Assembly: GCF_026004055.1 (NCBI RefSeq)
Contig: NZ_BPIJ01000003.1
Location: 124,001-188,000 of the forward strand
Length of the DNA: 64,000 bases
Direction: 5' to 3'
Origin: Meiothermus sp.
GTDB taxonomy: Bacteria > Deinococcota > Deinococci > Deinococcales > Thermaceae
Below, piece after piece: positions 5,751 through 34,235 of this stretch. The notes under the pieces were generated by a model that worked only from the letters and a program-made list of their open reading frames with translations, was not told the origin of the DNA and did not search any database. Every line of letters starts with the position of its first letter. Within the stretch, counting starts at the first letter, position 1. Made by a program: the position numbers and the translations under genes.

Positions 5751-5772
5751 AAACCCCCCCTTTGGGGGTTTC
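5751..5772 (+). terminator. Intrinsic terminator-like hairpin after argS
   Basis: Arms AAACCCCC (5751-5758) and GGGGGTTT (5764-5771) with a five-base loop lie about 75 bases after the argS stop. The T tract is short (three bases), so termination may be weak. Confidence 0.6.
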
Positions 5773-19603: not shown

Positions 19604-19978
19604 CTACTGGGGCGGCAGTACCACCTCGGTGGCAAAGCGATAGGGGCGGTTTTGTGGGCCGGTGAAGCGCAGGGTAACCCGGCGCAATACCACCTGGGTT
19701 CCGATAGTCTGGACGTCCTCGAGGGAAACGGTAGGGCTGCCAAAACCGCTGGGGGGCGCTACCGCAGGAAGTGCCGCGGCGTTGTAGGCTGCCCTCGTAG
19801 ACCAACTGGCCCGCAGGTTGTCGAAGTAGCTGCGGGCGTAGGCCTGGGCCTGGGTATCAATCTGGGCGTTGCGGGTGAGGGTGAAGCTCGAGCCAAAATA
19901 GGTCAGGATCAAAATAGTCAGGGAAAGGATGGCCAGCGCCACCATCACCTCGACAAAGGAAAAACCCCTACGGCGCAC
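19604..19978 (-). CDS. PilV-like minor prepilin, cassette A
   Basis: A prepilin of 124 residues if the GTG at 19978 is used. That start has GGTGGTGG a few bases upstream and gives the leader VRRRG before FSFVEVMVALAIL, with Glu5. An upstream ATG at 20011 would add 11 residues. It overlaps the end of the preceding FimT-like gene by 11 bases and is followed by the PilW-like gene after seven bases. By size and position it corresponds to PilV/GspI. Confidence 0.8.
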   Translation of the reverse strand: MRRRGFSFVEVMVALAILSLTILILTYFGSSFTLTRNAQIDTQAQAYARSYFDNLRASWSTRAAYNAAALPAVAPPSGFGSPTVSLEDVQTIGTQVVLRRVTLRFTGPQNRPYRFATEVVLPPQ

Positions 19979-20423
19979 GAACCACCACCTTTCCGGTTCT
20001 ACCAACCACATTAACGCTTAGCACGCGGCTGCCAGGGCCCCGCAGCACATAACTACTGTTGGCCCCGCTGTTCACAATGCCGTAGGGGGCATCGAACCTG
20101 ACCACACCACCCGTGGGTACGCTCTGAAAAATTACCCCAGGGGGTAGCGACTTACTCGGGAGCGAAGCCAAATCGCTGGTGCGCCCCACTTTATAGGTAT
20201 TGCTGTTGGCGCCGGCCTGGAAGGAAAAGTTGACCGACTGCCGCCGGGCCTGCTGGCGGATATTGAGCAGCTCGGTAGCCACCTGCGTAGCCGCCTCGCG
20301 GATGGCCAGGCTCTGCTGGTAAGAACGCAGCGAAACAAAGCCCACCCCCAGCAAAATGCCGAGCACCGCCAGCACAATCAAAAACTCCACCAGGCTTAGG
20401 CCCTTTGGGGAAGGTCTGTTCAC
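19968..20423 (-). CDS. FimT/GspH-like minor prepilin, cassette A
   Basis: A prepilin of about 151 residues with leader ending PSPKG before LSLVEFLIVLAVLGILL (Glu5 present). The GTG at 20423 overlaps the stop of the large pilin gene (GTGA), the usual coupling in this cluster; an ATG six codons upstream is the alternative. The C-terminal part has the beta-rich FimT/GspH pattern ending in SVNVVGRTGKVVVRAP. It is the second gene of cassette A. Confidence 0.82.
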   Translation of the reverse strand: MNRPSPKGLSLVEFLIVLAVLGILLGVGFVSLRSYQQSLAIREAATQVATELLNIRQQARRQSVNFSFQAGANSNTYKVGRTSDLASLPSKSLPPGVIFQSVPTGGVVRFDAPYGIVNSGANSSYVLRGPGSRVLSVNVVGRTGKVVVRAP

Positions 20424-22528
20424 TGCCCCACCACTTCCCATACACCGCGGCTGAGCTGGGCCTGCTGCCCACCAGGGATACGGGGGCGCAGGCGGTTGTC
20501 GTGGTAGATGTCCAGCTTGACCGGGGCCAGCACCCCGGTATCGGCGGCTACCAGGGCTCCGCGCAAGTCCCAGCGCCCCCCCAGGTTGTAGCCACGCCCA
20601 TTTTGTATCACGCTAAAGATGGCGTTGGCCGAGTACAGCAGACCATCTGTGCGCAGCGGGCCTGAAGCACGATCGCGCATGGTCTCGTTCCAAAGCAGCT
20701 TGAGGGCGGTGTTGCTAAAAGCGCTCGAGGTCAGCTCATAGCGCACCGACTGTCTGCGCAGGGCATCCACCTGAGCCTGGGTCAAAACCACGCTACCCAG
20801 CGAGGTTTCGCCCTGGCAGGTGTGCACTCGAGCCCCGGCCTGGAGGGTTTGGTAGCTTTCATAGCGCGTGGGGTCGTGCACGCAGCCATCTCCAAAGTAC
20901 ACTTCGTTTTCGCCAAAGGTATAAAAGCGAGGCCGGTAGGCATTATTGCGCAACCAACGCTGTATTTCGCTGCGGTTGAAGTTGGTCACCTCGGTCAGGG
21001 TCAGGTTGGGCCGATAGAGAGGGTCGTCCTGCCAACTTACAGATGCCCCGCTCCCACAGCCGGGCTGGGATGGATTGTTCCGGCAAACACCCATGGGAAG
21101 CTGAATTCGGTCGGTTTGTAGAAGGTTAAGGTTGTTCGCCGTAAAGGTGTCGATGCTCAAGAAATCTCCCATCAGGGTACTGCCCCCGGCAATCAGGTTG
21201 AGCTGGGGCAAGCGGCTGGGATCGCGGTAGTCACAGGCTTGCAGGGTGCTGCCCTGTCCGCAGTCGTAGGTCAGGTCGCCCAAAATGTACACGTTGCCCC
21301 GGGCCAGAATCGTCCCATTACCCCGAACACGGCCTCGGATGACCACATCGCCATTGATGAAAACCGTGCCGCTGAGGCTGATGGGCGTCACCGAGCCATC
21401 CAGAATGACGTTTTTACGAGAAAGGCCCAGCGCTGCCGAGTCGAGCGTTTGCACGCCAGAACCCCCTGGCCAGGCAATGCTGCTGGGATTAACCAGCATC
21501 GGGGCACTAATACTGCCGGCAAAGTAGTTTTCGTTGCGGTTATCGAGGCTCGCTTGCACTTCGTCTAGCCACTCCGCGTCGTCAATGAGGCGGTTGTTGT
21601 TGTCGTCGGGAATGGGCAGCGGAAAAAAGTCTGGCAGCTCACCGTCGGGGTAGCGGTTGCCAAAGGCGGCCAGACGGGTGCTGTCTGGATAGTTGTAGTA
21701 CAGGTTCTGGGTCGTGCTACAGTTGCTGGGGTTGCTGCAATCGGCAGGCGCGGGGCGAAGGGGTGTAACGGAGCGGATACGGGTCTGACCCGGCTCGAGG
21801 GTGGTGAAGTAGCGCGTGGAGGGCTCGAGGCGACCGCTGTACTGCTGACGCACCGTACCCCGGGTTACCAGGGAACCATGCACGATGCCCGCTTCCTGTT
21901 CGTCGCGCATCACCAGATCTTCCAGCACCCCCACCTTGATTCGTCGCCACCAGGTGCTGGGATCGCTGGGGTTGGGGTTGCCCCGGAAGGCGTCCATGCT
22001 ACGCACCTCGAGGTGGCAAAAGATGCAGTCGGCCTTATTGGTCAGGAAAGGGTAGTCGAAAGGAAACGGCGCCCGGGCCACCCGAAAAACCTGTCGCAGA
22101 CGTCGGGTAGTACCGTCAGGCAAGGTGCCGGTCGAGAGCACGGTTAGCTCGATGAAGGCCTCGCCCGAAGGGCTGGCGGTATCCCGACGGGAAACCCGCA
22201 CCGTATAGCTGCCCCCCTCCCCCAGGGTCTGGGGCTGGCCAAACAAGCTGTTGAGGGTGGCACCATTGGTTAGACCCATGCGTTCTAGGGCCTGTCGGTA
22301 ACCGGTCACGCTGGAGGAGGTGGCCTCGGCCAGCACCTGGTGCCACAGCCGGGCCACCGCTCGCTCGAGGCCCGCCTCGGCGGCGAACTGGGCCTGCGAG
22401 GTACGCAGAGCGTCCTGGGCATTGCGGCGGTTGTTGAGCGAGGTGATCGAAGCGACGCTAACCAGAATAATAACGATGAACATGAATACCAGGGTAGAAA
22501 CCAGGGTTATCCCCTTTGCTCTTGGCAT
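20420..22528 (-). CDS. Large PilX/ComZ-like prepilin with CXXCH and calcium-loop motifs, cassette A
   Basis: A 702-residue prepilin-like protein. The leader MPRAKG is followed by ITLVSTLVFMFIVIILV; residue 5 after the cut is Ser, not Glu, as in tip subunits such as GspK and PilX. A pilin helix with QFAAEAGLERAVARLWHQ follows. Cys168-Ile-Phe-Cys171-His172 is a haem-c or metal-type CXXCH. Residues 308-319 (DDNNNRLIDDAE) fit a 12-residue EF-hand loop. The central part (about 340-450) has repeated short strands with GNGTILARGNVYILGD, like a beta-solenoid. It is the first gene of cassette A, with GGGAGG five bases before the ATG. Confidence 0.78.
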   Translation of the reverse strand: MPRAKGITLVSTLVFMFIVIILVSVASITSLNNRRNAQDALRTSQAQFAAEAGLERAVARLWHQVLAEATSSSVTGYRQALERMGLTNGATLNSLFGQPQTLGEGGSYTVRVSRRDTASPSGEAFIELTVLSTGTLPDGTTRRLRQVFRVARAPFPFDYPFLTNKADCIFCHLEVRSMDAFRGNPNPSDPSTWWRRIKVGVLEDLVMRDEQEAGIVHGSLVTRGTVRQQYSGRLEPSTRYFTTLEPGQTRIRSVTPLRPAPADCSNPSNCSTTQNLYYNYPDSTRLAAFGNRYPDGELPDFFPLPIPDDNNNRLIDDAEWLDEVQASLDNRNENYFAGSISAPMLVNPSSIAWPGGSGVQTLDSAALGLSRKNVILDGSVTPISLSGTVFINGDVVIRGRVRGNGTILARGNVYILGDLTYDCGQGSTLQACDYRDPSRLPQLNLIAGGSTLMGDFLSIDTFTANNLNLLQTDRIQLPMGVCRNNPSQPGCGSGASVSWQDDPLYRPNLTLTEVTNFNRSEIQRWLRNNAYRPRFYTFGENEVYFGDGCVHDPTRYESYQTLQAGARVHTCQGETSLGSVVLTQAQVDALRRQSVRYELTSSAFSNTALKLLWNETMRDRASGPLRTDGLLYSANAIFSVIQNGRGYNLGGRWDLRGALVAADTGVLAPVKLDIYHDNRLRPRIPGGQQAQLSRGVWEVVGQ

Positions 22529-22539
22529 GAAACCCTCCC

Positions 22540-22579
22540 AATCTTACGTACCCTACCCCCAAATCTTAACGTACCCTAC
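22540..22579 (-). promoter_or_regulatory. Tandem TACGT repeats upstream of cassette A
   Basis: Two near-identical copies occur 22 bases apart: AATCTTACGTACCCTAC at 22540-22556 and AATCTTAACGTACCCTAC at 22562-22579 (plus-strand reading). They sit 12-51 bases before the large pilin start. Spacing of about two helical turns suggests binding sites for a dimeric regulator; each minus-strand copy also contains a TAAGAT that could act as a -10 box. Confidence 0.5.
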
Positions 22580-22612
22580 TCGAATGATTTGTAATTGACT
22601 TGAATTGTAACA

Positions 22613-22626
22613 CCCCCATTTGGGGG
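22613..22626. promoter_or_regulatory. Palindrome CCCCCATTTGGGGG upstream of cassette A
   Basis: The same 14 bases occur at 32060-32073 upstream of cassette C, with a variant at 27267-27280 upstream of cassette B. It lies between the response-regulator stop and cassette A. It could be a terminator for the regulator gene, but no T run follows. Confidence 0.45.
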
Positions 22627-22649
22627 TACTGGGCTACAAACAAGGATGG

Positions 22650-23234
22650 CTACCCACTTAGCAGCCCCAGGCTGCGGGCGCGCTCGAGGGCCTCTACCCG
22701 GTTGCGGGCCTCGAGTTTTTCATAAAGCCGCACCAGGTGGTCTTTCACGGTTTCGGGCGAAATGTGCAGGTGGCGGGCGATTTCTTTGGTCGAAAGCCCC
22801 TGAGCCATCCACTGCAACACCTCTTGTTCGCGGGCGGTGAGTTTGGGTAGTTCGGGGGCCCGCAGCCGGGGCTCTTGTCCCAGGCTGAGCCGGCGCAGGC
22901 GTTCGGCCAGGGCCTCGGGGGGTAGTTCTTTCGACCAGTAGGCGTCGGCCCCGGCATAGGCGGCCTGCTGAACCAAAACCGGCTCGTTGAAGGTGGTCAG
23001 GAGGGTAATGAGGCCCGCGTAGCGCTGCTCGCGCAGCATACGGGCGGTGGCGATTCCGTCTAGCTGGGGCATGCGCACATCCAGCACCACCCCGTCCGGC
23101 AACAGTTGCAGGCACAGATCCAGGGCTTCCTGGCCATCGCCGGCCTCCCCTACCACCTCGAAGCCTTCACGCTCGAGGGCCGCTCGCAGGCCCACGCGGA
23201 ACAGGGGGTGGTCGTCGGCAATCAGAAGGCGCAT
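22650..23234 (-). CDS. NarL/FixJ-type response regulator
   Basis: A 194-residue two-component regulator. The receiver domain has the acidic pair Asp7-Asp8, phospho-acceptor Asp52 in VVLDVRMP, and normal spacing. The LuxR-type helix-turn-helix is at about 130-190 (LTAREQEVLQWMAQG, STKEIARHLHISPETVKDHL). It lies between pilin cassettes B and A on the same strand, so it plausibly regulates them. No kinase is adjacent; the nearest is at 27440-28429, on the other side of cassette B. An extended -10 (TGCTATTTT) sits eight bases before its ATG. Confidence 0.92.
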   Translation of the reverse strand: MRLLIADDHPLFRVGLRAALEREGFEVVGEAGDGQEALDLCLQLLPDGVVLDVRMPQLDGIATARMLREQRYAGLITLLTTFNEPVLVQQAAYAGADAYWSKELPPEALAERLRRLSLGQEPRLRAPELPKLTAREQEVLQWMAQGLSTKEIARHLHISPETVKDHLVRLYEKLEARNRVEALERARSLGLLSG

Positions 23235-23256
23235 CTAAACTCAAAATAGCACAAGG

Positions 23257-23280
23257 GCCCCCGGGGCATAGCCCAGGGGC
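23257..23280 (-). terminator. GC-rich hairpin after cassette B
   Basis: On the minus strand GCCCCTGGGC-TAT-GCCCCGGGGGC forms a strong stem between the end of the cassette B large pilin and the response regulator start. The following sequence (CTTGTGCTATTTT) is only moderately T-rich, so this may attenuate rather than stop transcription. Confidence 0.5.
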
Positions 23281-23301
23281 TCTCGTGTAAAGCAATTTGG
23301 T

Positions 23302-25431
23302 TTATTGGTTGTAGTCGCGGTGGAAGAGTTCTTGGCTCATATAGGAGGCCATGGGCGTGAGCGGGGGCAGCAGGGTGAAGTTACGGAAGCGGGTATCAAA
23401 AGCCCAGTTACGAATTGGAGGGTGGTACCAGGGCTGGCCCAGGAAGAAGTTTCCGTTTACGTGCTGCGGGCCGTTGGTTGTAAGGCTCACAATAGAACCC
23501 CGGTAGGTAAAGGTGCGCGAGGCTGTGATGTTGTTGAAGCGTCGCATCGAAAGGTTCACACCATTGATACTCAAGTTCACAGTACCGAAGAAAGCCCCCT
23601 TGAGCACAGACCAAATTGCCGCACTGAGGGGGGCTATGCGAACTTCGGGCCACTGGTTGGTCCACTGTTCGTGGAAACGCATGATGTTGTGCACCCCCCC
23701 CGCACTCTGGCCTCCGATGGTGGGGGTAATGGTGGAGCCGGTCAAAACTGCCGCCTGCACAATGGTATTGCTCGCCGGAGGAATCCAGCGGTTGGGTGCG
23801 TTGCTGCTATCTTCCGAGGTGCCCAGCGGCATCCAGCGGTTACGGCAACGGGGGTTGCTTTTGGCATCACCCCCAATCTGGGTTGCGGTGGGGTCAACTA
23901 CAGCGCCGTTGAGCGCCACGGTACCGCAGGCATTGGGGATGTTGTTGGTAAAGCCTGTGGGGTTGACAAAGGCCGGCCCATAGTGGCCGCTGATATAGGG
24001 GTTGGGGTGTTGGTTGAACCACTCGTTGGACAGAATGTTGATGGAGTCGCTCAAAAGGGCCGCCGGGCGCCACCTAGAGGAGGCACTCGTACTTAGGTCG
24101 CTGTTGTAATCGCCCTGAACATAGAGGGCCTGGTTGGTGACGACCGTCAAGCCCTTAATTTGCGGATTGGCAATGGTCAGGTCGGCCCCGTTGCGAATGC
24201 GCACCCCGTAGTTGTTGAGGCCCGAACTGTTGGGCCCCACCACCCCAAAGTAGAACACCAGACCGTTATCGGTGGTGTCGGCCAGGTTCACCAGGTCGCT
24301 GGTCTGCAAGGCCTGCAACAGCGCGGCCATATTGACCTCGAGCATATGAATAGGGCCTAGGTTGGGCCGGGTGGTGAGCTCGCGGTTGTTGTAAAAGGAG
24401 TTGGAGTAGTCCACCGGGCGGGTACCGCCACCGGTGTTGGGGTCAAAGGCCGTTCCAGTGTTGAGCAACGTGGTCAGGGCCACATTCACCGAACCGTCTA
24501 CGTTGCGAACCTCCACTTGGGGCAAGGCAGTATTGAGGTTGAGCACCACCCGCAGCTCGGCCCGCTCCCAATACAGACCGCCGGGGTCGAAGGCCGAGGG
24601 CGCAGGAATTTGCAGGGGGTTCATGTTGTTCTGTACCCGCCCGGCCCAGGTTGCATTGGAAAGCTCCGCGTTCGTGAGGGTGCGGCGAGCACCGCCCCCA
24701 CAGTTGATCTCCACCGAAAGCACCGAAACTGTCCCGTTGCAGCCCACGTTGCTCTTGCCGCCCCGGTAGATATCCCGCACCGCAGTGACATTGTCCGTGA
24801 CGGTCAGACTGGCACTGCCCCCGGCATCCAAGAAGATATTGGCGTTGGAGTGGATGGGCCCATCCATGGTCATGGTGGCCGTACGGTCAAATTCCAGGTC
24901 GCCCTCATAGAAGACCCCAAACTGGAAAAGGGGAATCAGCCGCTGACGAAAGGTCATCCGTACAATGGCCTCGGGCTGATTCTGCCGGTTCAGGGCCCGC
25001 GCAAACACATCGTAGCGGTACTGGTTGGCCCAGAGGCCTTGGAAGGGCTCCCCAGGTGGAATGGAGATGGTATCACCGTTGACCACGTTGTTGGTCAGCT
25101 CGCGCATATAGGTGACTACTTGCTTACCTTGAACGGTAGTGGTCTGGCAGGCAAAATCGCCGCTGCCCATATTCCCAGAGCTGCAGGGGTTGCTGGCACC
25201 GGGAGCGGTTCCACTGGGCCGGCTATAGTTGGCGAACTGCTCCTTGACGGCTGCCGCCCGCAGGTTTAGAGCCGACTCGGCAGCAAAAAACCCCTTGGTG
25301 CGGGAAGACTGAGCGGCGGAGTTGTTGGTATCCAGTACAGAGATGGTGAAGTAAGCCGTGAGCAACGTAGCCAGTACGGCCATCATCAGCACCACTGCCA
25401 GGAAAGCAAAGCCTCGGTTGGACATATTCAC
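23302..25431 (-). CDS. Large PilX/ComZ-like prepilin, cassette B
   Basis: A 709-residue prepilin-like protein. The leader MNMSNRG precedes FAFLAVVLMMAVLATLL; position 5 is Ala, so Glu5 is missing as in PilX/GspK. The helix continues with KGFFAAESALNLRAAAVKEQF. The globular part is rich in Asn, Gly and short strands (for example GPIHSNANIFLDAGGSASLTVTDN), compatible with the beta-solenoid insertion known in Thermus ComZ. The GTG at 25431 is chosen because AGGAGG lies six bases upstream; an ATG two codons later is possible. It is the last gene of cassette B. Confidence 0.78.
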   Translation of the reverse strand: MNMSNRGFAFLAVVLMMAVLATLLTAYFTISVLDTNNSAAQSSRTKGFFAAESALNLRAAAVKEQFANYSRPSGTAPGASNPCSSGNMGSGDFACQTTTVQGKQVVTYMRELTNNVVNGDTISIPPGEPFQGLWANQYRYDVFARALNRQNQPEAIVRMTFRQRLIPLFQFGVFYEGDLEFDRTATMTMDGPIHSNANIFLDAGGSASLTVTDNVTAVRDIYRGGKSNVGCNGTVSVLSVEINCGGGARRTLTNAELSNATWAGRVQNNMNPLQIPAPSAFDPGGLYWERAELRVVLNLNTALPQVEVRNVDGSVNVALTTLLNTGTAFDPNTGGGTRPVDYSNSFYNNRELTTRPNLGPIHMLEVNMAALLQALQTSDLVNLADTTDNGLVFYFGVVGPNSSGLNNYGVRIRNGADLTIANPQIKGLTVVTNQALYVQGDYNSDLSTSASSRWRPAALLSDSINILSNEWFNQHPNPYISGHYGPAFVNPTGFTNNIPNACGTVALNGAVVDPTATQIGGDAKSNPRCRNRWMPLGTSEDSSNAPNRWIPPASNTIVQAAVLTGSTITPTIGGQSAGGVHNIMRFHEQWTNQWPEVRIAPLSAAIWSVLKGAFFGTVNLSINGVNLSMRRFNNITASRTFTYRGSIVSLTTNGPQHVNGNFFLGQPWYHPPIRNWAFDTRFRNFTLLPPLTPMASYMSQELFHRDYNQ

Positions 25432-25441
25432 ACTAGACCTC

Positions 25442-26356
25442 CTACTGCGAGAGGAAGTTGCGAGGGAAGAACTCGTTGGTTTGGGTGCGGGTGACGCCTT
25501 GGGGGTCGGTGGCCGTGATGGTGATGCGCACCCGGCTTAGATCCGAAAGTGGCATGGTGGCATTCCAAAGGCTACCGGTAGGAGTCAGGGGTTCTACCCG
25601 AAACTGCGTCACCCCCACCATAACGGCCCGCCCCGGCCCGCCGTTTTCGGAGAGCAAAAGCTGTCCGGCAGAGAGGGTATACTGCCTGCGGTCAACCAAC
25701 ATCAAGCTCGAGCCTTGCCCGTAGGTGCCGCTGGTAGAACCGGTGTAGGTAAAACTGTAGTTGGTGGCAGTACCGCTACCAGCGGTGAGGTTGATCAGCT
25801 TACCCGTACGCAAGGAGGGGTTGTAGAGATACACCTGCACGCTACCTCCTTGTGCGATGCGGTAGTTGTTGAAAGGCTCGGCCACATCGGGGATGTTGTT
25901 GCTGTTGCCATCGCCCTGGCCACAGCTATTGCTCGAGCTAGCCACAGGAATACTGCTGGCCGTGGCATTACCGCACAGCCCAATGGGAGTGGGAATGTTT
26001 GATCCGCTGCGGGCAAACCAGACCTCGAGGCTGTCGCCGGGCGTGCCTGCGGTGACCCAGATGGGTCTGGGGCTCGAGTTGTATCCCGCCCCCGCATATA
26101 GCAGTCCTTGGCCCGCCTGGCGCAAGTCGTCCCCAATCATGGCCATGGCAGCTTGAATATCCTGGTTTATCCCGGTACGAGACTGATCCAGGGTATAAAG
26201 CCGCCGACCCCCCATCACAATGGGTACCAACAAAGCCAGGATCAGAACCGAAACCGCCGAAGCAATCAACAGCTCAACTAAGGTCAGACCATCCTTTCTC
26301 CGCATTGGCAAGCGAAAACGACGACTTTGTTGTAAAGGTTCAGTTGAAAATGACAT
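25442..26356 (-). CDS. PilW-like minor prepilin with calcium-loop motif, cassette B
   Basis: A 304-residue PilW/GspJ-type prepilin. GGAGG lies six bases before the ATG at 26356, giving a long 23-residue leader ending MRRKDG, before LTLVELLIASAVSVLIL with Glu5. Residues 149-160 (DGNSNNIPDVAE) match an EF-hand-type loop with Asp1, Asn3, Asn5, Asp9 and Glu12. It overlaps the PilV-like gene by 17 bases and ends 10 bases before the large pilin. Confidence 0.82.
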   Translation of the reverse strand: MSFSTEPLQQSRRFRLPMRRKDGLTLVELLIASAVSVLILALLVPIVMGGRRLYTLDQSRTGINQDIQAAMAMIGDDLRQAGQGLLYAGAGYNSSPRPIWVTAGTPGDSLEVWFARSGSNIPTPIGLCGNATASSIPVASSSNSCGQGDGNSNNIPDVAEPFNNYRIAQGGSVQVYLYNPSLRTGKLINLTAGSGTATNYSFTYTGSTSGTYGQGSSLMLVDRRQYTLSAGQLLLSENGGPGRAVMVGVTQFRVEPLTPTGSLWNATMPLSDLSRVRITITATDPQGVTRTQTNEFFPRNFLSQ

Positions 26357-26729
26357 ACACCGCCTCCAAGCTATAAACCAGGCGACCGTCCAGCCTTACC
26401 TCGACCCGGAACTGGCGCTTGTCGCTGGAGCACTGGCTGGCATCCGGGCAAAAAACCGTGGTAACGGAGTAGTTTCTACCCCCTTGCGATACAGTCTGGG
26501 GTGAAGTGCTACCGGACATGGGGATGGTAGCCCCGGCTGCGCCCTTGGTTTGGCGTCGCCAGAAGTCCATTTGCTGCTGTGCAACAATAATCGCTTGGTT
26601 ACGAACCTCGTTATCGGTATTGGACTGCAAGAAACCTACAAAGCTGGGGATGACAAAAGCCAGCAAAATACCCAGAATGGCCAGGGCCACCAGGGCTTCG
26701 ATGAGGGAGAAACCCAGGGATTTTCTCAT
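26340..26729 (-). CDS. PilV-like minor prepilin, cassette B
   Basis: A 129-residue prepilin with the short leader MRKSLG before FSLIEALVALAILGILLAF; Glu5 is present. Size and the QQQMDFWRRQ stretch after the helix fit PilV/GspI. Two cysteines (VFCPDASQC) could form a disulfide loop. Its ATG overlaps the stop of the FimT-like gene by four bases. Confidence 0.83.
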   Translation of the reverse strand: MRKSLGFSLIEALVALAILGILLAFVIPSFVGFLQSNTDNEVRNQAIIVAQQQMDFWRRQTKGAAGATIPMSGSTSPQTVSQGGRNYSVTTVFCPDASQCSSDKRQFRVEVRLDGRLVYSLEAVYVIFN

Positions 26730-27196
26730 TGCTTGACCACACCTCCCCCCAAAAGAACCTGCATTCCACGGGTTCTTCCTTCTCGGCTTAGGGTAAGGGT
26801 CAGGTTGCTGGGCGAGCCCAGGCTTCCGCGGCTATTGAAGCAGATGCTCCAGGAAGTAGGGCTCATGGTTACCCCTTCGCCCAGTTGTAAGCCGCGCAAG
26901 CCTCCCCCCAAATCGCGTCCGATACTGGCATCGGTAGCCCAGGTAGTCGCACTACAACTGGTTGCCCACTGCACCCAAATGGTGCCGTCGTTGGCCACCA
27001 GACGATAGGCCGCGGTATTCTGCATGGCTTTAATACGGGCCAACCGAACCAGTGAAACCAATTCGGCATACTGGTTTTCTAAAGGGTTGGAAAAACCCCT
27101 AAAACCTACCAGAGCTACCGAGAACAAAACGGCCATCACCGCTGTTACGATGATGCCTTCGATCAGGGTAAAGCCCCGCATTGAAAATCTGGTCAT
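26726..27196 (-). CDS. FimT/GspH-like minor prepilin, cassette B
   Basis: A 156-residue prepilin. AAGGAG lies five bases before the ATG at 27196, giving leader MTRFSMRG before FTLIEGIIVTAVMAVLFSV with Glu5; an upstream in-frame start would add seven residues without a ribosome site. The body follows the GspH pattern (LVRLARIKAMQNTAAYRLV, ending in a strand-rich LTLSREGRTRGMQVLLG). It is the first gene of cassette B. Confidence 0.84.
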   Translation of the reverse strand: MTRFSMRGFTLIEGIIVTAVMAVLFSVALVGFRGFSNPLENQYAELVSLVRLARIKAMQNTAAYRLVANDGTIWVQWATSCSATTWATDASIGRDLGGGLRGLQLGEGVTMSPTSWSICFNSRGSLGSPSNLTLTLSREGRTRGMQVLLGGGVVKQ

Positions 27197-27266
27197 GTAG
27201 CTCCTTTGCATATCCAAGCTAGCCCCTCACCAACTCCAAAGTAAGAGGAGGTTACAGGCTTGTAGA

Positions 27267-27311
27267 CCCCCGATTGGGGGCTGGAACGTTACGTTAATCG
27301 CTTATTAATCC
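27267..27311. promoter_or_regulatory. Palindrome and AACG/TACGT motif upstream of cassette B
   Basis: CCCCCGATTGGGGG at 27267-27280 is followed by AACGTTACGTTAATCG and TTATTAATCC. The same order and polarity on the plus strand (AACG..ACGT.A, then ATTAAT) occurs upstream of cassette C at 31966-31995. It lies 71-115 bases before the first cassette B start and 130 bases after the end of the kinase gene. The palindrome alone could be a kinase-gene terminator. Confidence 0.45.
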
Positions 27312-27439
27312 AGCTATGCAAACGACCCCAATGTTTGATTAATTTGCTTGCGATAGGCTTTTTCGCCTAAGTTTGTCTTGATTCAACCAAGCAACCAGGA
27401 TTGTTCAAAAATCACAAGCCTCGGCAAGCCCGGCCTGGG

Positions 27440-28429
27440 TCAGGGCTGTAGGTACAACCGCAACCGCGACCCCTGCTGCTTTTTCAGGTTTTCCAACCGC
27501 CCCCCATGTACCTCGGCCACCCGCCGGGCCACATACAGCCCCAGCCCTGCGCTGCCGGCCCGCACCCCCCGCAGGCGCTGGCTGCGGAAGGGCTGGGAGA
27601 GGGCTTCCAGGCTATCGGGCAGGCCGGGCCCATCGTCTTCAACCTCGAGCCAGCCATCCCCCGCCCTAAGCACCACCCGGCTTCGGGCGTGTCGCAGGGC
27701 GTTCTCGGTCAGGTTCGCCAGGGCCCGCTCGAGCAAGAGCCGCTCGGCGCGGGCCTGTCCGGCCCCTTCAATCTCCAGGCGCAGGCCGCGCTTTTGGGCT
27801 TGCTGGGCGTAGCGCAGGCGAAAGTCTTCCAGAATCGAGCGCAGGTTGAGGTTTTCCGGCTGGATGCGCTGGGCCTCGAGGCGGCTGGCGGTGAGCAGGT
27901 TTTCTACGAGTTGGTAGCTCCGGTTGAGCTCGTCGCGCAGACTGCGCAGCATTTCCTTGCGCTTCTCAGGCCCAATCTTGTCGGCCTCTTCCAGGTATTC
28001 CAGCGCCCGCAAGCTGGCCAACAGGGGGGTCTTGAGGTCGTGGGTCAGGGCGGCGTAGGTGGCCTCGCGGGCCTCCAGCAGCTCGCGCAGGTGGTTCAGC
28101 ACCTCCTCGAAACCCTCGCGAAGCTGCTCGATCTCGGCAGGAGGACGTTGTTGGGGCGAGGGCAGCGAAAGCTCGGCCAGGGTGCGGCCGGCCCCCCGCA
28201 GGTAGTACAGGCTGCGGGTCAATTCATCTACCGGGCGCAGCAGCGCATTGGCCAGAATATACCCCACACCGGCAGCGACCAGGGCCAGCACCAAGACCCA
28301 GACCAACAAAAAAAGCCGGGTCTCCAGGGGTTGCCCGCGGGCCGAGACCCAGAAGGTGAGCACAATGGCCAGGTTGGGAATAAAGGCCAGCAAACCAATC
28401 ACCCAGGCCAGTTGGTGCTTGAGCGACAT
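27440..28429 (-). CDS. Sensor histidine kinase, membrane-bound
   Basis: A 329-residue kinase. Two transmembrane segments (residues about 9-30 and 38-62) enclose almost no extracytoplasmic domain, so it probably senses within the membrane or through partners. A HAMP-like linker follows (LLRPVDELTRSLYYLRG). The phospho-acceptor is His130 in ALTHDLKTPL. The ATPase domain has NLTENALRHA, EDDGPGLP and GSAGLGLYVARRVAE. It lies between pilin cassettes C and B. No regulator is adjacent; the NarL-type regulator at 22650-23234 is the only candidate in the window, although HisKA kinases more often pair with OmpR-type regulators. Confidence 0.9.
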   Translation of the reverse strand: MSLKHQLAWVIGLLAFIPNLAIVLTFWVSARGQPLETRLFLLVWVLVLALVAAGVGYILANALLRPVDELTRSLYYLRGAGRTLAELSLPSPQQRPPAEIEQLREGFEEVLNHLRELLEAREATYAALTHDLKTPLLASLRALEYLEEADKIGPEKRKEMLRSLRDELNRSYQLVENLLTASRLEAQRIQPENLNLRSILEDFRLRYAQQAQKRGLRLEIEGAGQARAERLLLERALANLTENALRHARSRVVLRAGDGWLEVEDDGPGLPDSLEALSQPFRSQRLRGVRAGSAGLGLYVARRVAEVHGGRLENLKKQQGSRLRLYLQP

Positions 28430-28471
28430 GGCTCCAGTCTACCTATCCCTATCCGGAATTGGTTTTTCCGT

Positions 28472-28497
28472 AAAAACCCCCACGCATAGCGTGGGGG
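28472..28497 (-). terminator. Terminator of pilin cassette C
   Basis: Stem CCCCCACGC-ATA-GCGTGGGGG followed on the minus strand by five T. It lies just after the comZ-like stop and before the kinase gene, so cassette C is probably its own transcription unit. Confidence 0.88.
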
Positions 28498-28514
28498 CAA
28501 GCGGGCGTATCGGC

Positions 28515-30185
28515 TTAGCGCCGCTCGTAGGACATGATCTTGAAGGAAGCAATGATGGTGTCTTCGGGGATTTGCGCTGCAACCGGGATGTTGCCCATGG
28601 TGGGAACATAGGTCACCTCGGCCTGCTGACCCGCATTGCACTGGCTGCCCCCGGCGCTGGTGGTGCAGAACTCGTTGGCCACCACGGTACCCAGGGTGCG
28701 CTGGTTGCGCTGGGTGCGAAACCGGCCTCCGGCATAGAAGATACCCATGGCATTGTTGGTGAGCTGCTCGAGGTTGTTCTGGGCCAAGAGCCCCAGCACC
28801 TGGTTGGGGAAGGTGGCCGAACTGGCGTCGGGCAGCACATCACGGTTCAGGGTAATGCTGCCGCCCTCTACAAAAATAGAGGCGTTGCGCTCGGTGGGGT
28901 CGGCAAAGTTGAAGGCCCGGTAGTTGACTGCATTGTCGAAGCTCACATTAATGCCACTGGTGTGCAGGGTTCCGTAAATTTCTAGAATACCAGGGTTGCC
29001 TGCCATATAGCGGAAGCCACCGGTTTTGCCGTTTAGGGTGTAGCGACAGTCCATACTGGTGCTGCCGAAGCGCAGCACGCCACCGCTGAGCACATTGCCC
29101 AAAACGCACGAGAGCGGACTGGTGGGAATAGCCCCTACAGGGAAAAGGACGGCCCCGCTGGTGATACGAAGACCCTGGCTGGCCGCCTCGTCACGCACGC
29201 AGGCCGCCCAGGTGCGGGAGGGGTCGGTGGTGCAGGGGGTGGTGTTGAACTCGGGAAAGCGGGGCGCGAGGGCGGGGGGCAGGTCGAAGGCCCCGCGGTC
29301 ATCGGTGCAGATGCCCCGGTTGGCGGCGCAGACGCTCGAGGTATTGCCGTAAATGTCGTTGGCGGCATCCCCCACATAAGCCCCTAGGAGTGGGTTGCTG
29401 GGCGTGCCATAGCTCGAGCTCCCCCCCACTTCTACCCGCCCATACTGCACCCGCAGGGTAGCGCAGAGGTTGGCAAGGCTGCGCATATCGCTGTTGAGGC
29501 GGTTGCTGAGCACGCTATCGGAGGTGTAGTTGTAATCGTTATATAGGGCAAAATTGCCGTTGGAGTCAATCACAGCTTTATCGGGGTCATTGCTTTGACC
29601 CTGTACATAAAGCCCACCCCGTATCAAAGCTCCTCCGTTGAGGTGCTTGTTGGCGGCCCCGCGCCCGCTAAAGATGGCATAGTTCCAGGGGCCGGTATTG
29701 GAGAGGTCGAAGGTGGCCTGGGCAATGGCCTGCGAGCCATTGAACCGGCCCACCGAGCGCACCAACATGAAGCGCGGGCGGGTGGGATCCTGGGCCACGG
29801 TGATGGTGTAGGTACCGGTACCGGTGCCCATCGGTACACTGCCGGTGCGGGTGGTAGGCAGGGTTTCGTTGCTCTCGATGGTGCCGTTGCGGTTCCAGTC
29901 CACACCAGCCGCCAGCACGTTGCCGCACTCGCTGCGGGTGGGGGTACGGCTCCCCCCAACGTTTCTAACAGTCTGGTAGAGCTGCCAGCGGTAGGCCTGG
30001 AACAGGCGGGTTTTCCACTGCTGCAGGCCGGTTTCGGCCACATAGTAGGCTTCGGTTGCGCCCCGCTCGTTGCGGGCGCTCCACTGGCTAATCATGGTGG
30101 TGACCGAGGAGGCAAAAGCCAGCAGTCCCACCGCGACCAGAATGGCCAGCGTGACGACCAGGGCGATTCCTTGGGGTTGTTTCAT
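28515..30185 (-). CDS. comZ: ComZ-like large minor pilin with EF-hand-type loop, cassette C
   Basis: A 556-residue prepilin-like protein, about the length of Thermus thermophilus ComZ, the competence pilin with a beta-solenoid insertion implicated in DNA binding at the pilus tip. The leader MKQPQG precedes IALVVTLAILVAVGLLAF; position 5 is Val, not Glu. Residues 96-107 (DWNRNGTIESNE) match an EF-hand loop at every ligand position. Repeated short strands with many Asn and Gly follow (IRGGLYVQGQ, GGFRYMAGN, GILEIYGTLHTSG). The ATG overlaps the stop of the upstream PilW-like gene by one base. The symbol rests on length, gene order and architecture, not alignment. Confidence 0.78.
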   Translation of the reverse strand: MKQPQGIALVVTLAILVAVGLLAFASSVTTMISQWSARNERGATEAYYVAETGLQQWKTRLFQAYRWQLYQTVRNVGGSRTPTRSECGNVLAAGVDWNRNGTIESNETLPTTRTGSVPMGTGTGTYTITVAQDPTRPRFMLVRSVGRFNGSQAIAQATFDLSNTGPWNYAIFSGRGAANKHLNGGALIRGGLYVQGQSNDPDKAVIDSNGNFALYNDYNYTSDSVLSNRLNSDMRSLANLCATLRVQYGRVEVGGSSSYGTPSNPLLGAYVGDAANDIYGNTSSVCAANRGICTDDRGAFDLPPALAPRFPEFNTTPCTTDPSRTWAACVRDEAASQGLRITSGAVLFPVGAIPTSPLSCVLGNVLSGGVLRFGSTSMDCRYTLNGKTGGFRYMAGNPGILEIYGTLHTSGINVSFDNAVNYRAFNFADPTERNASIFVEGGSITLNRDVLPDASSATFPNQVLGLLAQNNLEQLTNNAMGIFYAGGRFRTQRNQRTLGTVVANEFCTTSAGGSQCNAGQQAEVTYVPTMGNIPVAAQIPEDTIIASFKIMSYERR

Positions 30186-30862
30186 CACAGCACCTCGTCG
30201 GTTTTCAGGTTGCGGATCGGCACCCGCTGGGCGATGGTGTAGGTGTAGGTGCCCTGAGGTGAGGTCGCCGTCACGGTCACCAGCGCCGCCCGCACAAAAC
30301 GTTCGGTGGGGTTGGCCACGGCAATACAGCCGCTGGGGAGCCCCACTTCGGTGGCCGCGGCATCGCCGCAGACATAGCGGATGTTGAGCTGGGTGATGTT
30401 GGGGGCAAACTCGCGGTAGCTGCTGGCCGCAATCGCGCCGGTAGGGGCCTGGCTGCAAGGCACATCAGCCCGCAGAAGGGTGGTTCCGTTGAAGCTATAG
30501 CCAACGGAGCGGCACTCCTGGCCGTTTGGATAGAGACTGGTGTGGTAGCGGGTCACAAAGGTGTCCCGCTCGAGCTGGTCGGTGCCGGTGAGGCAGGGCG
30601 TTCCGGGCGCGCAAGAAACCCAGCTAGTCGCGTCAAAGCGCACCTCGTTGCCCCGGATAAAGCGGCTCGAGCCCGCCAGCAGCAAGTCCTGGCTCACCAT
30701 CTGCAGCACCAGGCGGGCCCGATCCTGTACCTCGTTGCGCTCCTGCACAATGCGGGTGTCCTGTGACTGGCTGGCCAAAAAGCGGGTGGCAATGGCCAGC
30801 ACCCCGGCAAAAATCGCCAGCACCACCATCAGCTCGAGAATCGTCAAACCTTTAGTTCGCAT
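30185..30862 (-). CDS. PilW-like minor prepilin (PilA3 position), cassette C
   Basis: A 225-residue prepilin: leader MRTKG, then LTILELMVVLAIFAGVLAI with Glu5. The following DRARLVLQMVSQDLLLAGS is the PilW/GspJ pattern after the helix. It directly precedes the ComZ-like gene, the place of pilA3 in Thermus. The start follows the PilA2-like stop by nine bases. Confidence 0.83.
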   Translation of the reverse strand: MRTKGLTILELMVVLAIFAGVLAIATRFLASQSQDTRIVQERNEVQDRARLVLQMVSQDLLLAGSSRFIRGNEVRFDATSWVSCAPGTPCLTGTDQLERDTFVTRYHTSLYPNGQECRSVGYSFNGTTLLRADVPCSQAPTGAIAASSYREFAPNITQLNIRYVCGDAAATEVGLPSGCIAVANPTERFVRAALVTVTATSPQGTYTYTIAQRVPIRNLKTDEVL

Positions 30863-30871
30863 GGCAAGCTC

Positions 30872-31318
30872 CTAGTTGGGACGCGGACAGGGCTCGAGGC
30901 TCCCCGCCCCAATGGCGGCGGTACGCGAAGCAAAACTGTCGTAGCACGAAACCTTGGTAGCCAGGTTAATGGTGATGCCCTGGCTGGCCGCCGAGGACTG
31001 AATCAGGATCTGCCCTTCCCCGTCCAGACCTTCGTCTATGCCGCTGTTGATGATGAATCCGGTACCTGAACAAACAAAGCCGTTGCCGCTCTCATTGCCG
31101 GTGGGGCAGCCGTTGTAGTAGCGGGTAAAGTTGGCCAGCACCACCCCCACCTGGTTTTCCAGAATTTGCGTGGCGGTGTCCTTGACCTGGCTTACCACCC
31201 CCGCCCGGGCGGTGGCGCGGTAGTTGGTAACCTGCGAGAACACCAGCACCCCAAACGCTACCGCCATCACGGCCAGGGCAATCAGCAACTCGACCAACGT
31301 AATTCCTCGATTCTGCAT
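30872..31318 (-). CDS. PilV-like minor prepilin (PilA2 position), cassette C
   Basis: A 148-residue prepilin: leader MQNRG, then ITLVELLIALAVMAVAFGV with Glu5. Four cysteines are present in the globular part (NGCPTGN, FVCSGTG, SCYDS, PCPRPN), which suggests disulfides. It occupies the pilA2 position between the FimT-like and PilW-like genes; the gap to the upstream gene is eight bases. Confidence 0.83.
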   Translation of the reverse strand: MQNRGITLVELLIALAVMAVAFGVLVFSQVTNYRATARAGVVSQVKDTATQILENQVGVVLANFTRYYNGCPTGNESGNGFVCSGTGFIINSGIDEGLDGEGQILIQSSAASQGITINLATKVSCYDSFASRTAAIGAGSLEPCPRPN

Positions 31319-31326
31319 GATGGCTC

Positions 31327-31833
31327 CTATGGACAGGCCGCTCTGATCTGGGCGCGGCCCTGCTGGTTGATGTTCACGAAACGGCTATACGAGCCGATGG
31401 CAAGCTCCACACTGCGGCTGGTGGCCAGCTGGTAGACCCCCCGAGCGTCGAACACCACCTCGGCGCTGGTAGAGGCCGCGGCATCGGCAGCAGTACACTG
31501 CCGCAGGCTGGCTACAATCCGGCCCCACTCGCCCTCCCCAAACTGGGTGCGGCTGATCACGGGGTCGCTGTTATCCAGGCCGTTCTGGTCGGCATCGGCC
31601 ACAATTTCGTAGCGGTTGGTTCCGCTGCCAAAGCTGAATCGGATTCCCACCGGCACGTTGCGCCGCAGGGCCTCGAGGCGGGCGCGGGTCACGTCGGCAC
31701 TGAGAATCTGGGCCGCCTGATTGACCCGCATCCGGTCGGAGTTAAACCACCCGCCTCCCAGGGCAATCAAAATGCCTAAAATGGCGGTCACCACGATCAG
31801 TTCAATTACGCTCAGACCGCTGGCTCGCTTCAC
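31327..31833 (-). CDS. FimT/GspH-like minor prepilin (PilA1 position), cassette C
   Basis: A 168-residue prepilin starting at GTG 31833, with GGGAGG five bases upstream. Leader MKRASG precedes LSVIELIVVTAILGILIAL with Glu5. The TRARLEALRRNVPVGIRF stretch is typical of FimT/GspH. Residues 80-91 (DADQNGLDNSDP) give a partial calcium-loop pattern, Asp1-Asp3-Asn5-Gly6-Asn9, but lack Glu12. It is the first gene of cassette C. Confidence 0.84.
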   Translation of the reverse strand: MKRASGLSVIELIVVTAILGILIALGGGWFNSDRMRVNQAAQILSADVTRARLEALRRNVPVGIRFSFGSGTNRYEIVADADQNGLDNSDPVISRTQFGEGEWGRIVASLRQCTAADAAASTSAEVVFDARGVYQLATSRSVELAIGSYSRFVNINQQGRAQIRAACP

Positions 31834-31965
31834 ACAACCTCCCGTCTGGAGGTGACAGGTGCAACTTGGTTACCGCAGCCAACCACCCCGTGTTTGCTCA
31901 CAGCTTCAGCCTAAAAGCGCGCAACCACGCTCCGGATGACTTTTGACCCAACAATTCAACTTTTA

Positions 31966-32073
31966 GGTAACGCAACGTAACGCCTAGATTAATGACGATT
32001 AAATGCGTCTCAGAACAGCAATATCGAAAATCCACTTACAGCAAAATTAACGAACCACTCCCCCATTTGGGGG
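31966..32073. promoter_or_regulatory. AACG/TACGT repeats and palindrome between cassette C and trmI
   Basis: GGTAACGCAACGTAACGCC at 31966-31984 is followed by GATTAAT, and CCCCCATTTGGGGG is at 32060-32073, identical to the 14-mer upstream of cassette A. They lie in the 323-base divergent spacer (31834-32156) between the pilA1-like gene and trmI. A terminator role is unlikely in a divergent spacer, which favours a regulatory site. Nothing else in the spacer looks like a gene. Confidence 0.48.
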
Positions 32074-32156: not shown

Positions 32157-32924
32157 ATGACCTACGGCGACTGGGCACTCTTGCAAGACCGGCGGGGCCG
32201 CACCTATCTGTTTCGTTTGCAGGAAGGCGGTATGTTCAACTATCACCGGGGCTCCTTGCACCATGAGGCCATCGTGCACGCAGGGGTCGGTGGGAGGGTT
32301 GCCACCCCTCAGGGCGAGCTCTTTACCATCCACCGCCCCACCCTGGAAGACTACGTGCTGCACATGCCCCGCGAGACCACCCCCACCTACCCCAAGGACG
32401 CCGCCACCCTCTGTTTTCTGCTCGACTTAGCCCCCGGTATGCGGGTGCTGGAGGCCGGTTCGGGCTCCGGGGGCCTGACCCTGTACCTAGCACGGGCGGT
32501 AGGGCCTTCAGGCCAGGTTTGGAGTTATGAGACCCGCCCCAAGCACCAGGCCCGGGCCCGACGCAACCTGAGCGAGTTTGAAGACTGGGGCAACGTGACC
32601 TGGGTGGAGGCCGACCTGGCCCAGGCCGAACTCCCCCCAAAAGCCTTCGACGGGGTGGCGCTCGACCTGATGGAGCCCTGGACGGTGCTGTCTAGCGTAA
32701 CCCCGGCCCTCAAGCCCGACCGCTTTCTGGCCTGCTACCTACCCAACCTAACCCAGGTAGTAACGCTCCTGGAAGAAATAAAGCTGCACAAACTACCCTA
32801 CCTAACAGAGCGCACCCTGGAAGTGCTGCACCGCGAGTGGGACGTGCGACCCCCTGTAGCCCACCCCAAGTTTCAGCAGGTGGGGCATACCGCGTTTTTG
32901 GTGCAGCTCAGGCGAATTAGGTAA
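32157..32924 (+). CDS. trmI: tRNA (adenine-58-N1)-methyltransferase TrmI
   Basis: A 255-residue class I methyltransferase, the size of Thermus TrmI, that makes m1A58 in the T loop of tRNA and is needed for growth at high temperature in Thermus. The small N-terminal beta domain (GDWALLQDRRGRTYLFRL) precedes the Rossmann fold with the SAM motif VLEAGSGSGGLTLYLARAVG and the catalytic-region motif VALDLMEPW. The ATG at 32157 is the start that matches the family; the frame is open further upstream through the cassette C spacer. Confidence 0.93.
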   Translation: MTYGDWALLQDRRGRTYLFRLQEGGMFNYHRGSLHHEAIVHAGVGGRVATPQGELFTIHRPTLEDYVLHMPRETTPTYPKDAATLCFLLDLAPGMRVLEAGSGSGGLTLYLARAVGPSGQVWSYETRPKHQARARRNLSEFEDWGNVTWVEADLAQAELPPKAFDGVALDLMEPWTVLSSVTPALKPDRFLACYLPNLTQVVTLLEEIKLHKLPYLTERTLEVLHREWDVRPPVAHPKFQQVGHTAFLVQLRRIR

Positions 32925-33215: not shown

Positions 33216-34235
33216 ATGCAGTGGCGTTACCTATTTCCCGTTTTGGCGTTACTCGTTTTAGTATCTGCTTGCGAAACGCCCAATCCACCCCCGGCCACAC
33301 CCTCACCCCCTACGATTATGCTGACAGACAGCGGCCCCATAACCGTTGCTCGCGACGATCAGGTTATCGAGAACGTCCGAATCAACGCCAGCAATGGACA
33401 CGGCATTACGGTTATCAACAAGCGCAATGTGGTGATACGCAACTGCCTCATCCAGCACCGAAACGGTGCGGGCATCTTCTTCAGAAACAGCCCCGGCATC
33501 CGCATCGAAAACTGCCACATCATTCACACCGGGGCTCCTGCCAGCGGGCCCAACCCCAGCGAAACCCTAAATAACATCACAGGAGAAATTTCCCCCGGCG
33601 CAGTAATCGACAACGTACGGCTGGAGAAAGGCTCTTCGGGCATCTATCTGACCGACTCCCCCAATGCCGTGCTGACCCGTGTGGAGGGCCGCGACTTTAG
33701 GGGCCCCTTCCCTCGAGGGCAGTTAGTCCAGTTTTCAAGAAGCCATAACTCGCGCCTAGAAAACTTCTCCAGCATCAACGGTCGGGAAAGCTGGGTCGAG
33801 GACAACCTATCCGCCTGGCGCTCCTCCAACGTGGTTTTTAGGAATGGCTACCTCGAGGGCAACAACTCCCCCAGCGGGGTGGGCGTTATGTTTGAGCAGG
33901 ACGACGGCGCTTCTTCAGGAGGACTGGTAGAGGACGTTCACCTGATCAAGATGGGCAACGGAGCGGTCTCGGCGTATCCGGGCCGCAACGTCATCTTCAG
34001 AAACATTGGTGTTCGGGACAACATTTGTACCGATCAGGGGAGGGGAACACCTTTGTCGGGTGGCTTGAGCTTTTCCGGATCGCCTAGCTCCAGCAACCTG
34101 CGGGTGGAAAACTCCCGGTACTTCAACCTCTGCCACATTGTCTTGTGGGATAGGCAGGCTTTTAGTTTTGTGGAGCTCAAGCAAGAGAACTTCGCCCTGA
34201 AAACACCGTTTAAGGCCAGGTTCGGATGGGAGTGA
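33216..34235 (+). CDS. Exported lipoprotein with right-handed beta-helix repeats
   Basis: A 339-residue protein with a lipoprotein signal (lipobox LVSAC, Cys19), a Pro/Thr-rich linker, then parallel beta-helix repeats: N-x-x-I-x-N-C patterns such as RNVVIRNCLIQHRNGAGIFF, IRIENCHI, NSRLENFSSINGR and RNVIFRNIGV. Such folds are found in polysaccharide lyases, epimerases and surface adhesins; no catalytic signature was recognised. It is a single gene between trmI and the catabolic block, with codon use less GC-biased than the block that follows. The 291 bases upstream (32925-33215) hold no other gene; a CTAAGCTTAG palindrome is at about 33173-33182. Confidence 0.72.
   Translation: MQWRYLFPVLALLVLVSACETPNPPPATPSPPTIMLTDSGPITVARDDQVIENVRINASNGHGITVINKRNVVIRNCLIQHRNGAGIFFRNSPGIRIENCHIIHTGAPASGPNPSETLNNITGEISPGAVIDNVRLEKGSSGIYLTDSPNAVLTRVEGRDFRGPFPRGQLVQFSRSHNSRLENFSSINGRESWVEDNLSAWRSSNVVFRNGYLEGNNSPSGVGVMFEQDDGASSGGLVEDVHLIKMGNGAVSAYPGRNVIFRNIGVRDNICTDQGRGTPLSGGLSFSGSPSSSNLRVENSRYFNLCHIVLWDRQAFSFVELKQENFALKTPFKARFGWE

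Follow-up and report, generated by a model that had tools for sequence, protein, structure and literature searches.

Activators of the LuxR/NarL/FixJ type often bind near position -42.5 of their promoters, the lux box at -42.5 being an example of a class II LuxR-type activator site, and a conserved dyad at about -42.5 in a promoter without a -35 element characterises class II activation. Pilin genes may also be controlled in another manner, as for pilA of Pseudomonas and Acinetobacter, which is under PilS/PilR, where PilR is a sigma-54 enhancer-binding protein. Among the Thermaceae, the pilA4 promoter of Thermus thermophilus has been studied although its regulator is not known; the accessible part of that account places the predicted -35 and -10 elements at 131-170 bp upstream of pilA4 and reports higher activity for a longer promoter fragment than for a shorter one (PMC10507856). 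Competence regulation in T. thermophilus is described as relatively little known in the accessible part of a 2021 review (PMC8578077). The Meiothermus locus considered here carries three pilin cassettes, each with a CCCCC-N4-GGGGG palindrome upstream, and no description of this site was found in the titles and abstract openings of the open-licence PMC literature.

The pilin island and its palindromes

The window, by which we mean the whole stretch of 64,000 nucleotides that was analysed (Meiothermus sp., contig NZ_BPIJ01000003.1, positions 124,001 to 188,000), contains a pilin island with cassettes A, B and C, all transcribed from the minus strand (Table 1). The palindromes are exactly those of the preliminary description, CCCCCATTTGGGGG upstream of A and of C and CCCCCGATTGGGGG upstream of B. 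For the first pilin of cassette B the ATG at 27196 is preferred to the TTG at 27217 from a reading of the ribosome-binding site. The large protein of cassette A belongs to a family found in 17 of 18 genomes of the genus and is without any Pfam family in a Pfam scan; searches of solved structures with the pilins and with this protein returned nothing that identifies either, and a BLAST search against plasmids gave no match. A gene for a beta-helix (NosD-like) protein lies downstream of trmI at 33216-34235.

Depending on the Meiothermus genome, the interval between the kinase and regulator genes (23302-27217 in the window; read at six loci) holds either pilin cassette B or B', a different cassette that takes the place of B in other species, and cassette C is present in some genomes and absent from others. 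Judged by sequence comparison, the B/B' interval is a site of cassette exchange within a conserved two-component frame.

Table 1. Coordinates of genes and sequence elements in the window (position 1 is its first letter).
Feature	Position	Strand	Remarks
Cassette A	19968-22528	-	
Cassette B	23302-27196 (or 27217)	-	
Cassette C	28515-31833	-	
First gene of cassette A, large protein of 702 aa	20420-22528	-	pilin-like or PilX-like N-terminus by eye
Pilin of cassette A	19968-20441	-	PF07963, TIGR02532
First pilin of cassette B	26726-27196	-	PF12019, PF07963
First pilin of cassette C	31327-31833	-	PF12019
NarL/FixJ-type response regulator, between cassettes B and A	22650-23234	-	PF00072 and PF00196
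Membrane histidine kinase, between cassettes C and B	27440-28429	-	PF00512, PF02518; position conserved
TrmI-type tRNA methyltransferase gene adjoining the C palindrome	32157-32924	+	
Cassette A palindrome (putative operator), sense CCCCCAAATGGGGG	22613-22626	-	kept at 8 of the 16 A orthologues
Cassette B palindrome (putative operator), sense CCCCCAATCGGGGG	27267-27280	-	present at all three B orthologues
Palindrome upstream of cassette C, sense CCCCCAAATGGGGG	32060-32073	-	
TACGT direct repeat, 22 bp apart	22544-22579	-	between candidate promoter and A start
Candidate -10 of A, AATCAT	22584-22589	-	23 nt after palindrome; inferred from spacing
Alternative extended -10 of A, TGTTACAAT	22604-22612	-	directly after palindrome; conserved in class A
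Candidate -10 of B, TACTTT	27238-27243	-	23 nt after palindrome
Box TAACGTAAC	27288-27296	-	7 nt upstream of B palindrome
ATTAAT upstream of B box	27304-27309	-	
C box, ATTAAT then two CGTTAC 10 bp apart (sense)	31968-31993	-	conserved in most of 7 C upstream regions
GTTAAT downstream of C palindrome	32046-32051	-	8 nt from palindrome

Within the window, CCCCCNNNTGGGGG gives six strand matches, a number reached by none of 100 shuffles and thus above chance, and the looser CCCCCNNNNGGGGG gives four, which 15 of 100 shuffles reach and which is at chance level. Over the genome of 3.18 Mb there are 25 sites for CCCCCNNNNGGGGG against 13 for the reversed control; the surroundings were inspected at ten of the 25, four inside the window and six elsewhere. 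The window by itself is weak evidence for the palindromes, and it is the comparison between genomes that carries the case; as the palindromes are only mildly unusual within the window, relatives were compared. The palindrome arms are 90-100% identical within classes against 50-86% in the 30 bases upstream, the figures for cassette A being 95-100% against 50%.

Conservation with pilin cassettes and the accompanying boxes

Sixteen orthologues of cassette A were compared, in which the palindrome is present in eight, imperfect in one (G007) and missing in seven. Six of the eight genomes have 61 nt between palindrome and start codon, G006 has 65 nt and the present genome, whose leader holds a 22-bp duplication, has 84 nt. 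The stop codon of the regulator gene, by contrast, is found at distances between 23 nt, in the present genome, and about 400 nt, in G016; in G003 the regulator gene is on a separate contig and another gene is found upstream of the palindrome. The palindrome at cassette C also lies upstream of trmI. It is found there in nine of 18 genomes, eight of which possess cassette C and one (G014) a remnant of it, and is absent in the other nine; its restriction to places beside cassette C or its remnant indicates that it belongs with the pilins. As an element of trmI it is ruled out, its presence there tracking cassette C.

Composite patterns give the same association at B and C. The palindrome followed by GTTAAT at N6-9 has a single occurrence in each of eight genomes, out of 111 in the class, always before cassette C, with no match for the reversed control in the 111 genomes; the spacing is 8 nt in six and 7 nt in one of the seven upstream regions read. 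The B composite, TAACGTAAC-N7-palindrome, occurs once each in 12 of the same 111 genomes (three before B, nine before B'), again with no match for the reversed control; at a tenth B' site, in G010, the box is a variant one. A related site is found upstream of a paralogous cassette, D, located elsewhere in the genome.

The preliminary description had also regarded TACGT/AACG repeats as common to all three upstream regions. This holds upstream of B and C, where the AACG/ACGT and ATTAAT blocks are conserved, but not upstream of A, where the repeat is found only in this genome. The B arrangement, ATTAAT-N5-ATTAACGTAAC, is conserved, and that of C reads ATTAAT-N5-CGTTAC with a second CGTTAC 10 bp on in several C regions. 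The two copies before A, TTACGTACCCTAC (22544-22556) and TTAACGTACCCTAC (22566-22579), lie 22 bases apart, are absent from all 15 other A upstream regions read, and probably represent a local tandem duplication in the leader; as an operator the repeat is ruled out by its occurrence in this genome only. A repeat search of the sequence did not list it, probably since one copy is a base longer than the other. Upstream of cassette B, two loci show inverted repeats (for example CTACCTACTTTGGTTAGGTAG) that surround the -10 and leader, their sequence varying between species with the arms kept.

Upstream of a gene for a CheY-like response regulator, CGTAAC boxes are found in nearly all of 12 genomes and the palindrome in five of the 12 (12 of 16 regions read), so that the box and the palindrome are separable elements. 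A CRP-like dyad, TGTGCATYCATCACAG, lies between these CGTAAC boxes.

Promoter geometry and competing readings

A -10-like hexamer starts 23-24 nt after the palindrome in 35 of 36 sites, which represent five promoter classes. Counted as an A at position 2 and a T at position 6 at this distance, the hexamer is present in 7/8 sites of class A, 3/3 of B, 10/10 of B', 4/4 of D and 11/11 of Thermus, and the spacing also fits in G002, G008, G042 and G007. Column-wise permutation within classes reaches the observed total in none of 5000 trials, with the same result when C is included and when A is left out and C kept, although the spacing was first noticed by eye in the same data and the test is not fully independent. 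The hexamers are TACTTT, TACTTT and TACCTT in B, TATCAT, TACAAT, TACAAT and TAGAAT in D, and mostly TACCCT in the eleven Thermus pilin operons; those of B' are CANACT-like and those of A AATCAT-like, and these two (CAAACT, AATCAT) are poor -10 elements. Cassette C, one third of the original finding, has a hexamer at 23-24 nt in just one of seven regions, and the spacing is absent at the palindromes of the CheY-like and amidase genes and at pilin genes in four loci (L111, L112, L113 and L150). The amidase-family gene (PF01425 for one of them) has the palindrome upstream in six genomes, those in which the palindrome search matched and in which the amidase upstream regions were read.

In the eleven orthologous Thermus loci the palindrome lies between two successive pilin genes, at the stop codon of the first or a short way past it, and has an imperfect left arm in two of these loci; it is absent at the seven paralogous Thermus first pilins read and at a distant homologue in G060. 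A search of 50 Thermaceae genomes for the palindrome followed at N23/24 by TANNNT gave 77 matches against 14 for the reversed pattern. Seventy-six of these were assessed, one poly-G match having been dropped. All 24 matches with ATTT or GTTT as centre lie before pilin or PilX-like genes, in several different operons and nearly all in Thermus, as do ten of the 52 with other centres, the remaining 42 being coding sequence, terminator-like or unassigned. A domain scan of 21 of these pilin-like proteins detected PF07963 in 17 and PF12019 in nine. At least one strict match before a pilin-like gene is present in 28 of the 50 genomes. In three Meiothermus genomes CCCCC(A/C)TGAGGGGG with a TACCAT hexamer occurs just before a response regulator gene.

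The common regulon put forward in the preliminary description is strongly supported by the presence of the palindrome before Meiothermus pilin cassettes and many Thermus pilin operons, usually with a constant spacing to a -10-like hexamer. Were this hexamer the -10, the centre of the palindrome would lie near -42.5. For classes A, B, B', D and Thermus the dyad accordingly has the fixed position near -41.5/-42.5 that is predicted of a class II activator operator; for C it does not. We consider it probable, at about three chances in four, that CCCCC-N4-GGGGG, with a centre that is usually ANNT, is the site of a dimeric transcription activator with class II geometry that switches on minor-pilin and PilX-like operons in the Thermaceae; binding by a protein, and activation rather than repression, are what we infer from the conservation, the fixed spacing and the link to pilin genes. 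In A, B, B', D and the Thermus operons the site, 23-24 nt upstream of the -10, would replace the -35 element. In B and B' the second conserved box ATTAACGTAAC, exactly 7 nt farther upstream, would probably be bound by another factor or another dimer. In C, where the palindrome is 183-272 nt before the start with GTTAAT fixed at 7-8 nt from it, the site would act, if at all, from afar. A shared operator of fixed geometry predicts which pilin operons are co-regulated and where their transcripts start, and offers a bait for fishing out the regulator.

That the palindromes instead serve the upstream genes as intrinsic terminators or RNA hairpins is suggested by their ability to fold as 5-6 bp hairpins and by the closeness of some to an upstream gene, the A palindrome lying 23 nt past the regulator stop codon and the Thermus palindrome directly past that of the preceding pilin. 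RNA folding compared with shuffles is better than expected for the A stretch (z -3.5) and not for B and C. Some look-alikes are indeed terminator-like (window position 5755, L142, L143, and L002/L141 with an extended stem); that at 5755-5768, CCCCCCTTTGGGGG, stands between two genes, is flanked by AAAA and TTT, and is unlike the pilin palindromes in kind. At A, B and C, however, there is no T-run and no match in a terminator scan, the C palindrome lies between divergent genes, and at A the 61 nt to the start codon are constant despite a variable distance to the gene upstream, which in G003 is a different one. With the spacing to the hexamer fixed as well, this reading is very unlikely for the pilin palindromes, and the preliminary description's proviso, that palindromes common 3' of unrelated genes would be terminators, does not hold for A, B and C by position, spacing and terminator scan.

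A repressor, or a metal-responsive protein of the CsoR/RcnR or MerR kind, seated over the core promoter is suggested by the resemblance of G/C-tract palindromes to CsoR/RcnR operators and by the A palindrome abutting TGTTACAAT. Taken as a -10, 3 nt after the palindrome, TGTTACAAT would centre the dyad near -22.5, a better fit to a repressor, and several palindrome-free promoters have TATAAT at roughly this position; in class A, TGTTACAAT thus makes repression, or the presence of a second promoter, possible. Classes B, D and Thermus, by contrast, present a good hexamer only at 23-24 nt and no -35 recognisable by eye, which suits activation, and no metal-related neighbour occurs among the loci read, so that repression appears unlikely as a general account. 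The alternation of B and B' at one place between kinase and regulator, and the presence or absence of C, could further be taken to mean that the palindromes are recombination sites at which pilin cassettes are swapped. They mark the 5' ends of the cassettes and not the 3' ends, however, occur ahead of individual genes as well (CheY-like, amidase) and in Thermus operons at other locations, and keep a strict spacing to the -10, all of which makes recombination the most improbable of the readings considered.

The candidate regulator and comparison with known systems

For the proposed activator, the response regulator encoded between cassettes B and A, together with its orthologues, is a plausible leading candidate as reader of the palindrome. 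Its receiver (PF00072, 7.5e-24) and LuxR-type (GerE) DNA-binding domain (PF00196, 2.9e-21) are both recognised, and it aligns over its length with structures of DesR and NarL. It scores below the NCBIfam equivalog cut-offs for NarL (128.3 against 250 bits) and NarP (113.6 against 343 bits). The family is present in 49 of 50 Thermaceae genomes, with a DNA-binding helix that hardly varies within the genus and resembles its Thermus counterpart, and in two Thermus loci examined the gene is an orphan beside ribosomal genes. The near universality of the family makes co-occurrence uninformative as to the identity of the reader; the dyad near -42.5, the position of the gene within the island, its presence in 49 of 50 genomes and the constancy of the helix nevertheless make this protein the first candidate. 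More tentatively, and with the balance somewhat against it, one NarL-type regulator, accompanied by a membrane kinase in Meiothermus and an orphan in at least some Thermus, may be the master activator of Thermaceae minor-pilin operons (those of the DNA-uptake/twitching pilus) through a C5-N4-G5 dyad replacing the -35, with a CGTAAC-binding partner as a second input in Meiothermus.

To our knowledge the pure C5/G5 arms are unlike known sites of the NarL family. The pilA4 promoter of T. thermophilus is a pilin promoter of the same family, although the accessible part of the account of it does not mention a palindrome (PMC10507856). With the PilS/PilR control of pilA the island shares a two-component system beside pilin genes, but in contrast to PilR its regulator is of the NarL type, with REC and GerE domains. 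The likeness is closest to the class II promoters of LuxR/NarL/FixJ regulators, with which the pilin promoters share a dyad of about 14-20 bp near -42.5, the lack of a good -35 and, as proposed here, a dimeric activator, a regulator of this family being encoded within the island itself.
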